46,789 bases of DNA, taken from contig JASJAS010000034.1 of assembly GCA_030066875.1 (NCBI GenBank), positions 1 to 46,789 of the forward strand, read 5' to 3'. Origin of the DNA: Acidimicrobiia bacterium (lineage in GTDB: Bacteria > Actinomycetota > Acidimicrobiia > Spongiisociales > UBA5794). Below the pieces are notes generated by a model, which saw only the letters and a program-made list of their open reading frames with translations, did not search any database and had not been told where the DNA came from. Each line of letters opens with the position of its first letter. The first letter of the stretch is position 1. The translations under genes and the position numbers were made by a program. This document shows positions 39,867 through 46,789 of the stretch, in pieces.

Positions 39867-40291
39867 TGAAGATAAGCAGCGTGTTGATTTGGGCAACTAT
39901 CGTCGTGATCTGGGTGACGGTCCTGGCGATGAGCATGGGGTCGCCGAATCTGGAGTTCGGGGACGAGCCGGAAATCATCGATATCGCTGTCATCGTCAAC
40001 TGGTTCTGGGGTCTCGTGGGCACCGTCGGGGTGCTTCGGCTCACGTTGTTCCGTCGTCCCAACGAGGTCGGATGGGGTGAGACGACCGCATATCCATGGA
40101 TTCTTGGAGTCGTCGGAGCACTCTGGATTGCCGCCGGGTTCAGCGCAATCAACCTTCCCGTGTTGGAGTGGGGCGACAATATCGTGATTCCGGTTGCGGC
40201 CATCGTTGCCCCGATAGCTGCGGCGATGCTCACCTGGTACGCCTGTGAGTTCCTCGTTGCCGGTTTCGCCGCCCGGCAGAGCGGCAACTAG
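39867..40291 (+). CDS. Small membrane protein of unknown function
   Basis: 141 aa from ATG 39867 (MKISSVLIWATIVVIWVTVLAM...); about four hydrophobic segments. Confidence 0.6.
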
Positions 40292-40674
40292 CCCTTATTA
40301 CTGTTCTGTGGCAGTAGCTCCTGAATAGCCGCGGCGAGTTCGGCCGGCATGAACGGCTTCTCGAAGAAGCGGTCGGCGCCGCCCTCGAACGCCCGCCGTG
40401 CGCTGTTGCCTTGGCCGTGGGCGGTAATAACGATGATCGGAACGGCACCTGCCAGGTCGCCCATGCGCAGCGCGTGGAGCACTTGCCAGCCGTCGACCCG
40501 TGGCAAGGCGATGTCGAGTATCACAAGGTCGGGTATCGAGTCATGGAGGCTGACGAGGGCATCGATGCCATCGACAACGAACTTTGCGTCGACCCCGCGC
40601 TTGCGGAGAATCTCGCCGACAAGCCTGCTCGAACTCGGATCGTCTTCGACAACCAGCGCGGTGGGCCTATCCAT
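40288..40674 (-). CDS. Single-domain response regulator (CheY-like receiver)
   Basis: 128 aa from ATG 40674; ALVVEDDPSSSRLVGEIL, DLVILDIALPRVDGWQVL (phospho-Asp), IVITAHG, FFEKPFMPAEL; no output domain. Confidence 0.88.
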   Translation of the reverse strand: MDRPTALVVEDDPSSSRLVGEILRKRGVDAKFVVDGIDALVSLHDSIPDLVILDIALPRVDGWQVLHALRMGDLAGAVPIIVITAHGQGNSARRAFEGGADRFFEKPFMPAELAAAIQELLPQNSNKG

Positions 40675-43600
40675 CGTCACTCTCCACTGTGGCACCCCAG
40701 GCGTTGGCGCGCTGATCGCTGGCCAGCAGCCGGTAGCGCACCCGCATCCCGGCATTGAGACCGGCGCGTTGCCGGCGGGGGAAAGCGTGTGCATGGACGA
40801 ATATCGCCTCGCCGCCGGCGTCTGGGTCGATCAGCCCGAAGTGCATCTCCTCATCGAAGAAGCTGATGGTGCCGGCATGTCGATCGCCGCGCCACAACAG
40901 CGGGTAGAGGCCGATGCGCCCGATGGTGGTAAACCCGAGGAGAAGCACGATCAACAACGTCAGGGGCAAGCTGAGCGCCTCGGTGGTTGCGCTGGCGACA
41001 CCACCCATCACGACAAGCGTGCGGCGGATGCGCGGTGTCTCCTCACCTTGGCCAACGCTGGGTTGCTCGAAGTCATCGATCGCTTCGATGATCAGTTCCT
41101 TGTCTTCCGCGGCTACCGGGTCGGCAACTATCCAGTTGAACTCCACGGTCGCCTGCAATTGCGGAGTTCCGCTGTCGGTCACCGTGACGGTGACGGGATG
41201 AGATCCCGCCGTATTGACCGCCAGCCGGCCGCCGATCACGCCAGTCGCTGGGTCGATGGCCAGCCCGGTGGGCAGTCCGGTGGCCGAGTAGCTGAGGGGC
41301 TGTTCGTCGCTGGCGAGGATGCTCAATGTGACCGTCTCACCTTCGGAATCGAACTGTGTAGCCACCGGAGAAATGATGGGCGCCGAGTTGGGATCATCCT
41401 GAAGAGCTGAAGCGGTCACCATCCAGGTGAGGTTGGTGCTCGCCTGCAGCGAGGGTATGCCGTCGTCGGCGACGGTGATCGCGACGACGTGGAACCCGGT
41501 GGCGCTTTGCTCGATTGTGCCGGTGATCATCCCGGTCACGCGATCGATCCGCAGTCCTTGCGGCAGACCTTCGGCCGAGAAGCTCAGCATATTGCTGGGC
41601 AGGTCGGGATCCGATCCCGCTACTTGGATCTCCACGGTGGTAGCCGCTTCGCTGATCTGGCTCGAGAGCGGCTCGATGGTCGGCGGCAGGTTGGTCTCGA
41701 ACACGGAGATCGTGACGATTCGTCTGGCGGCCAGTTGCGGGCTGCCGGCGTCGGTGGCGTAGACGGTGAGCCGATACGTTCCCGGTCCCTGCGCTTCCGT
41801 CGGTATCCACGTGACGACTCCCGAAGCAGCATCGATGGTGGCACCGGCCGGCTCGCCGGACAGTGAGAACATGACGTCATCACCGTCGGGATCGGTTGCC
41901 CGAGCCGTGAACGAGATTTCGGTTTCCTCGGCACCTGATATCGATGAAGCGACGTCGAGGGTTGGGGGTCGATTGGTGTCGGTCACCGTCCACACGAAAC
42001 TCGCCGAGCCGGAGAGCGATGGGCTGGCCCCGTCGCTGACCGTGACGGTCACTGGGTACACGCCGACTGATCCCGCCGGGAGCGTGCCGGAGATGTGTCC
42101 CGTGTCGTCGTCGATAGCCAGGCCAGGTGGCAGACCACTCGCATGGAAGCTGAGAGTGTTGGCGGGGAGATCCGGGTCAGAAGCAGCGATCGTCAGGTCG
42201 ACATCGCCGAACTCTCCGCTCACCTGGTCGGGAACGGGGTCGACTGTGGGAGCTCGGTTCACCTCCGTCACCGTGATTGTGACGCTCTTGCTGTGAGCTT
42301 TGGCCGGGTGCCCGCTATCGGTCACCGTCACCGTCACCAAGTAGACCCCGAACCCGTCGGCTTCGCCGGGCGTCCAAACGAAGTCGCCGCTGGTCGGGTC
42401 GATGGACGCTCCGGGCGGTCCGGAGATGCTGAAGAGCAAGTTGTCGCCGTCGAGGTCGCTCGCCGTCGCCGTGAACGTGATCGTGGTTTCCTCAGGCACA
42501 GTGTGATCGGGAATGAGCCCGAGTACCGGGCGCCGGTTGGTATCGGTGACGGTGATGATGAAGGACTCGTCGTGACTGAGCCCGCCGGCTGAGGCGGTGA
42601 TCGTGACGGTTGTGGTTGCGGCGTCGGTGTAGCCGGGGGTGCCGGTGACTGTGCCGGTGCCGTCGCCGTTGTCGACGAACGTGGCCCAGCCGGGCAGGCC
42701 GCTCGCCGAAAGGCTGGGAGTGGTCCCGTCGGGGTCAGAGGCGGTCGCGACCAGGGTGAACGGGTCGTTCTCGGCAACGACTTGATCGGCAATCGGTTCG
42801 ATCGTTGGGGGCCGATCCGTGTCGCTGATCACGATGCTGAAGGTGGCGGTGTCGATGAGTCCACCGTCAGTAACCGTGATGGTGACCGTTGTGGTTGCGG
42901 CGTCGGTGTAGCCGGGGGTGCCGGTGATCGTGGCGGTGTCGTCCCCATTGTCGGTGAGTGTGGCCCAACCGGGGAGGGTGCCGCCGTCGCTGAAGGCGAC
43001 GGTCGTTCCGTCGGGGTCGGTGGCGGTGAGAAGAACACTGAAAGATGATCCTTCGGCTCCACCTTGGTCACCGGGGTTGGTGATGGTGGGTGGCCGGTTG
43101 GTGTTGGTGACGGTGAGGTCGAAAACTACATCGTCGGTGAGGTTGGGAACTCCTCCGTCGTCGGCAGTGATGGTGACTGTTGTCGTTCCGGAGTCGCTTG
43201 CCCCGGGGGTGCCGCTGATGGTGCCGGTGCCGTCGCCGTTGTCGGTGAGTGTGGCCCAACCGGGAAGCGTTCCTCCGTCGGCGAGCGTTGGGATCTCGCC
43301 GTCGGGGTCGGTGGCCACGACGAGGAGCGTGAATGGTGCCAGCTCGGGCGTTGTCTGTGGGCCCGGGCTGGTGATTGTGGGTGGCCGGTTGGTGTTGGTG
43401 ACGGTGAGGTCGAAGGTCTCGTCGTCGGTGAGAGAGCCGTCGTGGGCGGTGACGGTCGCGGTGCTGATGCCGGCGTCGGTGTAGCCGGGGGTGCCGCTGA
43501 TGGTGCCGGTGCCGTCGCCGTTGTCGACGAATGAGGCCCAACCGGGGAGGCCAGTTGCGGCCAGCGATGGGATGGTGCCATCGGGATCGGACGCGGTGAC

Positions 43601-46600
43601 CGTCAGTGTGAACGGGTCGTTTTCGGCGACGGTTTGGTCGACGATGGGATCGACTACCGGTGGCCGGTTGGTGTTGGTGACCGTCAGCTGGAAGGGGGTG
43701 CTGTCGGATAGGTTGGGAACGCCCCCGTCCTCAGCTTCGATGGTCACGGTGCTGATGCCGGCGTCCGTGTAGCCGGGGGTACCGGTGATGGTGCCGGTGC
43801 CGTCACCGTTGTCGACGAATGAGGCCCAGCCGGGGAGGCCAGTTGCGGCCAGCGATGGGATGGTGCCGTCTGGATCGGATGCGGAAACGACGACGGGGAC
43901 CAGGGCCACACCCTCCGCTGCTAGCTGGTCTCCGACCGGATTGACCACCGGGGGCCGGTTCGTGTTGGTGACGGTGAGGTCGAACGTCTCGTTGCCGGTA
44001 TCCGTACCGTCGTCTGCGCTGATGGTCACGGTGCTGATGCCGGCGTCGGTGTAGCCAGGGGTGCCGCTGATGGTGCCGGTGCCGTCGCCGTTGTCGACAA
44101 ACGTCGCCCATCCCGGCAATCCAGCAGCCGACAGCGACGGGATGGTGCCATCGGCGTCGGACGCTGTCACCGTCAGTGTGAACGGGTCGTTTTCGGCGAC
44201 GGTTTGGTCGACGATGGGATCGACTATCGGGGCCCGGTTTGTGTTGTTGATGGTGATGTCGAATACGGCGTCGTCGGTCAGCGAGCCGTCCCATGCGGTG
44301 ATGGTGACTGTGGTAGTCCCGGCGTCGGTGTAGCCGGGGGTGCCGCTGATGGTTGCGGTGTCGTCGCCGTTGTCGGTGAGGGTCGCCCACCCCGGCAAGG
44401 TGCCACCGTCGCTGAAACCAACCGTGGTGCCATCCGGGTCTGAGGCGGTGATGAGCAGGCTGAACGGAGTGGCCTCGGCCCCAATCTGATTGCCCGGGTT
44501 GGTGATCGTTGGAGGCTGGTTGGTGTTGCTAACCGTGAGGTCGAACACTGCGTCGTCAGCAAGCGACCCGTCCGAGGCGGTGACAGTGACCGTGGTCGTG
44601 CCGGAGTCGCCCCCACCGGGCGTGCCGGCGATGGTTGCGGTACCGTCGAGGTTATCGGTCAGCACCGCCCAGGCGGGCAGCGTGCCCGAGTCTGTGAATG
44701 ACGGTGTTGTGCCGTCTGGATCGGAAGCAGTGATCACGATCGAGAACGGTGCCAGCTCGGGTGTCGTCTGCGGACCCGGATTGACGATAACCGGCGGCCG
44801 ATTTGTGTTGTTTACGGTCCAGGTGAACGTATCGGGCACCGCACTCTCAGGCGGGGTGCCGTTGTCGGTCGCGGTGATCGTGACTGCATACGGACTTCCT
44901 GCAGCGGCGTTGTAGTCAATGGTGCCGCTGATCAGTCCTGAGCCAGGATCGATGGAGAGACCGGGGGGCAGCCCGGTTGCTCCGTAGGTGACGATGTCGC
45001 CGGAGTCGGGGTCGGTCGCGGCCGCCGACAACGAGATCGGCGCACCCTCCGCATCGATCCGGTCAAGTAGGTCTTGATCGAACACCGGAGGCCGGTTTGA
45101 TTCACTCACAGTCCAAGTGAATGTGTCCACTGCGCTCAAATTGGGGATGCCATCATCGGTTGCGGTGATTTCGACGGCGTAGCTGCCGGTGGCGGCGAAG
45201 CCGATGGTTCCCGATATCAAGCCGCTGTTCGGGTCGATCGCCAACCCGGGGGGAAGCCCGACAGCGGAATAGCCGACATCGTGCCCGTCGGGATCGGTTG
45301 CGGCTGCCGACAGTGAGATGGTCGAGCCCTCGGGGTCGGTTCTATCGAGCAGGTTCTGGTCGAACACGGGCGGCCGGTTCGGATCGACCGGGAAGGCGAT
45401 CGCCAATGCTTCGTAGCTCTCACCGTTGTCGATGTCGATGACACCAAGCGATGACCCGTCGGACTTGCTGAGTTCGTAGATCCGTTCTGTTCCCGCGGTA
45501 TCGGTCGAGGTGTAGAGCCGGCCTGTCTCGTCAAATGCCAAGCTAGCGACGTCATCTGGGGTCACGCCCAAAGTGACGGTTGCGCCGGTGGCAGGGTCGA
45601 GAGTGGCCAGGCTCCAGTCGCCGCTGAAATCCCAATGCACCAGATAGAGCTCGCCGTTGGTCGGGTCGAAGGCAATATCAGCTGAGTGGTAATACCCGCC
45701 CTGGGCTCCTATCAGCAGGTAGTCATCACCGCCGAAGACGCCCGGAATGTGGGCTCCACTGACTGGGTCGATCTGGAAGAGCAGGTCTTCCTGCCAGTTG
45801 CCCCGCCGGTGCGTCCCGTATAGCCCCCCTGAAAACGGATCGAACGACAGCCCTTCGATGTCGTCGAACGCAATGAGGCCGGCCGGACCGCTGCCGGCAC
45901 CGGCGATCGAGGGTCTGGGAGCGAAGACCCCCGTGGTCACGTCGATGATCCCAAGCTGATCGTCCTCGACCGCAAAGAGCGTGTTGGTGCCGGGCTGCAG
46001 CGCGATGGACTCGATATTCCAGGTGCCGGTACCGGTCCCAATGCTGACCTCGTTGGTGGTGGGATTCGAATCGGTCAGATCAACCGCCGTCAGCAAGTCA
46101 TTCCCGCCGTTGGCTCCTCCGCTGTTGGCGACGAGGTAGGTGACATCGCCCGGAGCAACGGTCCAGTCGAAGATGTCGGTGTCCTGCAGGTTCGGGGTAC
46201 CGTCGTCGGTGACTGTGATGGTGATTGAATAGACGCCAGCCGAGTTGGGGCCGAGCGCCCCGGTGAGAGTCCCGTTCGCCGAATCGATGGTCACTCCCTC
46301 GGGGAGTTCGGTTGCGCTGTAGGTGAGGTTGTCGCCCGGGTTGGGGTCGGTGGCCGAGGCTGCGATGATGACCAGCGTTCCCTCTGCGTCGGTCCGATCG
46401 AGGAGGTCCTGGTCGAAGACCGGCGGCTCGTTGGGGGGAGGGGTGTTGGGTATTGCCAGGGACTCGTAGTCGAAGCCGTTGTCCAGATCGATTTGGGCGA
46501 TGCTGGCGCCCGTGCTCTTGTCCAGCTCGTGGAGCTGCTCAGGTGCCGAACTTGTGGCCGTTGTTGCCCATGCTCGGCCATCCGAGTCGAAGTCCAGGCT

Positions 46601-46789
46601 TCTCAGGTCGTCCGGAACGGTTCCTATTCCAACCGTGTCGCCATTCGCCGGATCGAGGCTGGAAAGCGTGAAAGTGTTGAAGGTCTCGCTGACGTGGACT
46701 ACGTAGGTCTGGTCGGTGGTTGGGTCGAACGCCAGGCCGGACACCTGGTAGTTCAAGCCACTGGGCTCGATGCGGACGTAGTCGTCGCC
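40667..46789 (-). CDS. Giant cadherin/putative-Ig repeat surface protein with C-terminal TM helix and cold-shock-like cytoplasmic domain (N-terminus outside the window)
   Basis: Frame is open through 46789 (upstream residues GDDYVRIEPSGLNYQV...), so the TTG start at 46756 in the ORF track is not real. About 16 repeats of ~90-97 aa (TNRPPTI..PGDQ..ASDPDGT..LPGWATLTDNGDGTGTISGTPGYTDAG.STVTI.A.DG), DUF4394/propeller-like segments near the N-terminus, TM LPLTLLIVLLLGFTTIGRIGLYPLLW, then HAGTISFFDEEMHFGLIDPDAGGEAIFVHAHAF. Confidence 0.85.
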   Translation of the reverse strand, partial: GDDYVRIEPSGLNYQVSGLAFDPTTDQTYVVHVSETFNTFTLSSLDPANGDTVGIGTVPDDLRSLDFDSDGRAWATTATSSAPEQLHELDKSTGASIAQIDLDNGFDYESLAIPNTPPPNEPPVFDQDLLDRTDAEGTLVIIAASATDPNPGDNLTYSATELPEGVTIDSANGTLTGALGPNSAGVYSITITVTDDGTPNLQDTDIFDWTVAPGDVTYLVANSGGANGGNDLLTAVDLTDSNPTTNEVSIGTGTGTWNIESIALQPGTNTLFAVEDDQLGIIDVTTGVFAPRPSIAGAGSGPAGLIAFDDIEGLSFDPFSGGLYGTHRRGNWQEDLLFQIDPVSGAHIPGVFGGDDYLLIGAQGGYYHSADIAFDPTNGELYLVHWDFSGDWSLATLDPATGATVTLGVTPDDVASLAFDETGRLYTSTDTAGTERIYELSKSDGSSLGVIDIDNGESYEALAIAFPVDPNRPPVFDQNLLDRTDPEGSTISLSAAATDPDGHDVGYSAVGLPPGLAIDPNSGLISGTIGFAATGSYAVEITATDDGIPNLSAVDTFTWTVSESNRPPVFDQDLLDRIDAEGAPISLSAAATDPDSGDIVTYGATGLPPGLSIDPGSGLISGTIDYNAAAGSPYAVTITATDNGTPPESAVPDTFTWTVNNTNRPPVIVNPGPQTTPELAPFSIVITASDPDGTTPSFTDSGTLPAWAVLTDNLDGTATIAGTPGGGDSGTTTVTVTASDGSLADDAVFDLTVSNTNQPPTITNPGNQIGAEATPFSLLITASDPDGTTVGFSDGGTLPGWATLTDNGDDTATISGTPGYTDAGTTTVTITAWDGSLTDDAVFDITINNTNRAPIVDPIVDQTVAENDPFTLTVTASDADGTIPSLSAAGLPGWATFVDNGDGTGTISGTPGYTDAGISTVTISADDGTDTGNETFDLTVTNTNRPPVVNPVGDQLAAEGVALVPVVVSASDPDGTIPSLAATGLPGWASFVDNGDGTGTITGTPGYTDAGISTVTIEAEDGGVPNLSDSTPFQLTVTNTNRPPVVDPIVDQTVAENDPFTLTVTASDPDGTIPSLAATGLPGWASFVDNGDGTGTISGTPGYTDAGISTATVTAHDGSLTDDETFDLTVTNTNRPPTITSPGPQTTPELAPFTLLVVATDPDGEIPTLADGGTLPGWATLTDNGDGTGTISGTPGASDSGTTTVTITADDGGVPNLTDDVVFDLTVTNTNRPPTITNPGDQGGAEGSSFSVLLTATDPDGTTVAFSDGGTLPGWATLTDNGDDTATITGTPGYTDAATTTVTITVTDGGLIDTATFSIVISDTDRPPTIEPIADQVVAENDPFTLVATASDPDGTTPSLSASGLPGWATFVDNGDGTGTVTGTPGYTDAATTTVTITASAGGLSHDESFIITVTDTNRRPVLGLIPDHTVPEETTITFTATASDLDGDNLLFSISGPPGASIDPTSGDFVWTPGEADGFGVYLVTVTVTDSGHPAKAHSKSVTITVTEVNRAPTVDPVPDQVSGEFGDVDLTIAASDPDLPANTLSFHASGLPPGLAIDDDTGHISGTLPAGSVGVYPVTVTVSDGASPSLSGSASFVWTVTDTNRPPTLDVASSISGAEETEISFTARATDPDGDDVMFSLSGEPAGATIDAASGVVTWIPTEAQGPGTYRLTVYATDAGSPQLAARRIVTISVFETNLPPTIEPLSSQISEAATTVEIQVAGSDPDLPSNMLSFSAEGLPQGLRIDRVTGMITGTIEQSATGFHVVAITVADDGIPSLQASTNLTWMVTASALQDDPNSAPIISPVATQFDSEGETVTLSILASDEQPLSYSATGLPTGLAIDPATGVIGGRLAVNTAGSHPVTVTVTDSGTPQLQATVEFNWIVADPVAAEDKELIIEAIDDFEQPSVGQGEETPRIRRTLVVMGGVASATTEALSLPLTLLIVLLLGFTTIGRIGLYPLLWRGDRHAGTISFFDEEMHFGLIDPDAGGEAIFVHAHAFPRRQRAGLNAGMRVRYRLLASDQRANAWGATVESDDG
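40670..40879 (-). other. Cold-shock-domain-like C-terminal tail of the giant protein
   Basis: HAGTISFFDEEMHFGLIDPDAGGEAIFVHAHAFPRRQRAGLNAGMRVRYRLLASDQRANAWGATVE aligns by eye with the CSD pattern GTVKWFN..KGFGFI.PDDGG.DVFVH.SA......L..G..V.F......G..A..V (RNP1-like FGLI, RNP2-like IFVH). Confidence 0.65.
42540..44810 (-). repeat. Block of about eight closely related ~275-290 bp domain repeats
   Basis: Recurring DNA such as gtagccgggggtgcc.gtgat.gtgccggtgccgtcgccgttgtcg; an exact 56-bp copy at 43601-43656 and 44171-44226. Confidence 0.85.

Follow-up and report, generated by a model that had tools for sequence, protein, structure and literature searches.

The locus described here raises the question of what a cold-shock domain (CSD) does at the cytoplasmic end of a very large surface protein. 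Descriptions of bacterial cold-shock domains present them as free RNA chaperones of the cytoplasm; at this locus the domain forms the inner end of a giant surface protein, is under selection, and is encoded together with a sensor kinase and a receiver in one operon. The window, meaning the whole 46,789 nt stretch of DNA that was analyzed, is a complete contig (C111) of an Acidimicrobiia genome, and the features of the locus are listed in Table 1.

Table 1. Features of the CSD-tailed giant locus; all lie on the reverse strand of the window.
Feature	Position	Strand	Basis or remark
Stand-alone receiver protein	40288..40674	(-)	128 aa; Response_reg 83.4 bits; no output domain
Giant surface protein	40667..46789	(-)	2040 codons in the window; truncated at the 5' end by the end of the contig, lacks N-terminus and signal peptide
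Cold-shock domain (OB-fold) cytoplasmic tail	40670..40876	(-)	Pfam, profile search, AF2 and Foldseek, dN/dS
Basic inner linker GRIGLYPLLWRGDRH, positive-inside	40877..40921	(-)	Sequence alignment
Single transmembrane helix ALSLPLTLLIVLLLGFTTIG	40919..40978 (about)	(-)	Sequence; helix in AF2 tail model built without alignment
Conserved juxtamembrane segment IRRTLVVMGGVASATTE, extracytoplasmic side	40979..41029	(-)	Homolog alignment
Ig/cadherin-like repeat region	41150..46435	(-)	Pfam scan; approximate limits, estimated from residue numbers

Architecture of the giant surface protein

The reading frame of the giant contains no internal stops across its 2040 codons and runs off the end of the contig. 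The repeat region is composed of 16 He_PIG stretches with overlapping Big_9, Cadherin_4 and Cadherin_5 matches in the Pfam scan, and is broken up by a non-Ig, propeller-like stretch. The repeats are followed by the juxtamembrane segment IRRTLVVMGGVASATTE, one membrane helix, the linker GRIGLYPLLWRGDRH and a C-terminal tail of 69 residues. This arrangement, with the repeats outside, a single membrane-spanning helix and a cytoplasmic CSD, had been proposed in an earlier note made from the sequence of the window, and it is conserved across one order. Alignment of the homologs showed that R3 of the juxtamembrane segment is invariant and that the membrane helix module carries a conserved P...T.G(R/K) pattern; when the juxtamembrane-helix module was used alone as a query, the same giant copies were recovered. 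A C-terminal sorting signal was rejected, as no LPXTG motif precedes the membrane helix in the 18 aligned juxtamembrane segments and the tail is a folded domain.

Complete homologs of the giant span 1000–2319 codons and carry a signal peptide. The signal peptide that the earlier note proposed to look for upstream is evident in most homologs, the N-terminus of the window copy itself lying beyond the contig end. At one homologous locus (L028, G020:C39), the N-terminal part of the giant, with YCF48/BNR-like repeats, is encoded in two different frames downstream of the kinase stop and upstream of the giant ORF, perhaps owing to a sequencing error.

The C-terminal tail is a cold-shock domain by sequence and predicted fold

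The Pfam CSD family (PF00313) matches residues 1972–2030 of the giant with 30.4 bits in the whole protein and 34.7 bits for the tail alone (30.4–35.6 bits across scans), above the gathering cut-off of 27 bits, and the genome search places the domain at 40700–40876. Each of the 18 intact homologous tails also matches this family on its own at an E-value limit of 0.01, some of them under the curated cut-off. The tail of the paralog in the same genome (C87), for example, scores 25.8 bits, just under that cut-off. A profile built from the homologous tails retrieved the structures of CspE, CspA and CspB with E-values of 1e-14 to 1e-11.

AF2 predicts a five-stranded barrel (pLDDT 83, pTM 0.74) for the window tail when two homologs are included; from the single sequence the prediction was poor (pLDDT 51). 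The top PDB match provided by Foldseek for the tail model was CspA (TM 0.79/0.85), and nearly all matches with E<0.001 were cold-shock domains. The ratio dN/dS in the tail segment is approximately 0.09–0.15 (window versus G072 and G067), which indicates that the reading frame is real and under purifying selection. Together these results bear out the CSD-like tail that had been recognized in the earlier note: the structure prediction suggested for the C-terminus returned a CspA-like barrel, and an OB-fold/CSD match, whose absence would have counted against the assignment, was found both in Pfam and in the model.

Distribution of the architecture

An initial contig search with the single window tail as the query gave no match; with a three-sequence tail alignment as the query, two named relatives were retrieved, an uncultured Acidimicrobiaceae MAG and MAG Vin_3. 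The search for the same architecture in related genomes, as the earlier note had advised, identified 18 intact full-length repeat-TM-CSD copies in 13 genomes belonging to three families of one Acidimicrobiia order (138 genomes searched). Nearly all of the frames that hold these copies are 950–2319 codons long, and a divergent 19th copy is present in G070. No full-length tail was found outside the order in two wider samples, one of the class (395 genomes) and one of the phylum (397 genomes), where only ordinary cold-shock proteins (CSPs) were seen. Nine long-frame CSD loci outside the order were read and rejected; they proved to be either plain CSPs preceded by a read-through frame or CSDs running on from a helicase-like frame, with no surface protein among them.

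The source genome holds two copies, the window giant and a copy with a shorter ectodomain (L035, G000:C87:2660-6154). The latter has its own histidine kinase (C87:1785-3134) and a tail in which W8, F15, F17 and H29 are all lost. In other orders of the class, three loci (L105, L110, L111) encode an in-frame CSD at the C-terminus of an apparent DEAD-box helicase (HRSGRTARAG), which may be helicase-CSD fusions or run-on frames.

Organization of the operon

A sensor histidine kinase gene lies immediately upstream of the giant, on the same strand, in all 15 homologs with upstream sequence, and in eight of these the giant start overlaps the kinase stop by 4 nt (ATGA or GTGA). The upstream kinases that were scanned contain HisKA and HATPase_c domains, both over the cut-off, and two apparent membrane helices that flank a segment of approximately 150 residues. 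The kinase is missing from the window because the contig ends there, and the source assembly contains no other kinase of this subfamily except that of the paralog on C87.

The subfamily was defined by a profile of the sensor region, which gave 22 members above 199 bits with the next best sequence at 124 bits. Fifteen of the 22 lead into a complete CSD-tailed giant, six into giants cut by a contig end, and for one the contig ends inside the kinase; none was found with a CSD-less partner. The subfamily kinases without a matched tail were considered as counterexamples and rejected, as all are contig-end truncations. Kinase and tail distances co-vary (r=0.83, 0/5000 permutations), a correlation to which shared ancestry contributes.

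Directly downstream, a receiver-only gene follows the giant in the window and in seven homologs, its start overlapping the giant stop by 4 or 8 nt; in the window the overlap is 8 nt (ATGGATAG). The D/T/K residues of the receiver are intact. Approximately half of the giant copies are without a same-strand receiver gene. The extent given for the locus in the earlier note left out this co-operonic gene (40288–40674).

Putative nucleic acid-binding surface of the tail

The binding surface was compared with that of plain CSPs from the class (20 sequences, several nearly identical to one another), using CspB numbering and counting aromatic replacements. F30 and F38 were excluded as binding-site markers, as most plain CSPs of the class are also without them. 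The base-stacking residues W8, F9, F15, F17, F27 and H29 and the basic K7 are kept in 20/20 plain CSPs, whereas the 19 tails keep W8 in 9, F9 in 17, F15 in 12, F17 in 5, F27 in 18, H29 in 14 and K7 in 2. F9 and F27 thus persist while much of the remaining binding surface erodes. Judged on these residues, the suggestion that the tail tethers or regulates nucleic acid is weakened; the alternative offered beside it, in which the OB-fold of the tail has taken on a signalling or protein-binding function, fits no less well.

The erosion is unevenly spread. The window tail has F8, F9, F15, F27 and H29 (five of the six stacking/His positions), with L at position 17 and K7 lost, and four tails (G020, G013, G014, G016) are aromatic or His at all six. 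The C87-type tails, including the second copy of the source genome, lose W8, F15 and F17, and most also H29, and keep the architecture. The net charge of the tails (median -1, up to +6) is above that of plain CSPs (-5). Since the stacking residues are mostly kept in the window class and eroded in the C87 class, RNA/ssDNA binding is plausible for the former but probably does not explain why the fold persists in the latter. A protein-docking role fits both classes.

Residue retention also differs with the presence of the receiver gene. Position 8 is aromatic in 8/9 tails linked to a same-strand receiver and in 1/10 of the others, with F15 kept in 9/9 versus 3/10 and H29 in 9/9 versus 5/10 (Fisher p 0.001, 0.003 and 0.03, respectively, not corrected for relatedness). 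The loss of these residues in tails outside the receiver-linked group favors a docking role in at least part of the family. This correlation rests on related sequences and could reflect one or two evolutionary events. Both intact and eroded binding sites occur naturally, as do copies that have or lack a receiver gene, so the role of the tail can be tested on purified domains.

Proposed function of the locus

The giant is proposed to be the receptor of a surface-sensing two-component-type operon that is composed of a histidine kinase, the giant Ig/cadherin protein and a receiver, with the CSD tail in a docking or regulatory role; the probability of this reading is put at about 0.6. The "surface sensor" put forward in the earlier note gains strong support from the kinase that directly precedes every homolog with upstream sequence and from the overlapping receiver gene downstream. 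Counted against the receptor-operon reading are that the kinase is not seen in the window itself and that about half of the copies lack a same-strand receiver.

HisKA/HATPase_c kinases phosphorylate receivers, and the ligands of Ig/cadherin repeats are surfaces, polymers or other cells. The signal peptide would export the giant, and the repeats would be held outside the cell to bind a ligand of one of these kinds. Such binding, or a pulling force, would be relayed to the partner kinase by the conserved juxtamembrane-helix-GR module. The extracytoplasmic part of this kinase is itself short and probably helical. The kinase would then charge the single-domain receiver. The CSD tail would sit at the inner face of the membrane beside the kinase, where it could act as a docking or regulatory module for the kinase or receiver. 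In receiver-linked lineages, the window included, the tail may still bind RNA/ssDNA, and the state of the receptor could gate such binding at the membrane. A more speculative extension, considered rather unlikely, is that extracellular contact directly controls, via kinase and receiver, the RNA/ssDNA binding of the receptor's own tethered CSD, which would direct the output to nucleic acid at the inner face of the membrane without a DNA-binding regulator. If the receptor reading is true, the locus would provide a direct molecular link from outside contact sensing to a signalling adaptor or to RNA handling at the membrane.

The clear CSD homology and the predicted fold are also what would be expected of a membrane-tethered nucleic acid binder, in which a working CSD holds RNA/ssDNA at the inner membrane face under receptor control, for example localizing or chaperoning the mRNAs of surface or secreted proteins. 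The four tails with all six aromatic/His positions, the window tail with all but F17 (L), and the raised net charge agree with this possibility, which is nevertheless held only tentatively given that K7 is lost in 17/19 tails, F17 in 14/19 and W8 in 10/19, and that the C87-type copies retain the architecture after losing W8, F15, F17 and mostly H29. That the fold is better conserved than the binding site would suit an ordinary repeat adhesin as well, with the CSD-like barrel as a mere structural stop or anchor of a very long force-bearing protein and with no signalling or nucleic acid role, and the ectodomain repeats are typical of adhesins. Such an explanation appears improbable; it leaves the strict operon with a histidine kinase, the gene overlaps and the receiver unaccounted for, and other kinase-linked surface proteins (L049, L095, L096) have just a short cytoplasmic tail.

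Read-through of plain CSP frames does occur at other loci in high-GC genomes, and the giant frame could in principle be a fusion or assembly artefact in which a csp gene was run on through a lost stop codon. This is refuted by conservation and is given practically no weight: there are 18 intact copies in 13 genomes with the same membrane module, dN/dS is near 0.1, and the source genome itself holds a second copy.

Comparison with known systems

In two-component systems with an accessory extracytoplasmic sensor, such as HbpS with SenS/SenR, the sensor is encoded beside the kinase and is presumed to control it. The CSD-tailed giant would likewise be a separate sensor protein encoded beside a kinase, but it is far larger, built of repeats, spans the membrane and has a cytoplasmic domain of its own, and the receiver is without an output domain. 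CSD/DUF1294 proteins are small, with a CSD at the N-terminus tied to a membrane segment and no ectodomain; compared by description, they share the tie between CSD and membrane segment with the giant, in which the CSD is C-terminal and the ectodomain is large.

With cold-shock proteins (PF00313; CspA, CspB, CspE) the tail shares the sequence profile, the length of approximately 70 aa, the five-stranded OB barrel and the RNP1/RNP2-like positions, and it differs in being the C-terminal inner end of a secreted single-pass giant with variably lost base-stacking residues. According to a cold-shock domain review (PMC7825780), bacterial CSPs as a rule consist of a single CSD only, and the words "membrane" and "transmembrane" are absent from its text. 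Bacterial Ig/cadherin-repeat adhesins (He_PIG, Big_9, Cadherin_4/5) resemble the giant in the signal peptide (seen in the homologs), the many repeats and the one C-terminal membrane helix, but the giant has a folded CSD inside rather than a short basic tail, and lies in an operon with a kinase and a receiver. No published description of the repeat-TM-CSD architecture or of the operon was found in the open-licence literature that was searched. The parts are known and the combination appears to be new; two-component sensing with an accessory receptor is known, and the inner CSD is the feature for which no precedent was found.

Related giants and kinases in the order

A second giant family in the same order, seen as C-termini at five loci (L083, L090, L091, L094, L101), carries an SH3-like inner domain on a similar membrane module. 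One of the two tested inner tails matched SH3_3 at 18 bits, which is sub-threshold, and the domain of approximately 150 aa that follows the SH3-like domain (RPVELLSKLA...SPRGLVVAL...W.VFFEY...KPYVVGLG) had no Pfam match. The SH3-tailed giants adjoin the same kinase family at some loci. The presence of an SH3-like tail on a similar membrane module near the same kinase family suggests a docking role for the CSD tail, and that the cytoplasmic barrels of these giants are exchangeable inner adaptors.

One of these loci (L083, G005:C248) encodes on one strand an SH3-like-tailed giant, two receiver-only genes, a histidine kinase and the beginning of a second giant, this one of the CSD-operon type. 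The wider kinase family seems to be generally paired with surface proteins. In the source genome, L049 (G000:C163, 5431–11137) contains two tandem cassettes, each with a secreted single-anchor protein (~470 aa, TM motif FTTTGREL) and a kinase of the same wider family, and no CSD tail. At L050 (G000:C167, 1–3510), a kinase of the same wider family precedes a surface protein with SBBP-like repeats, which is cut off by the end of the contig.
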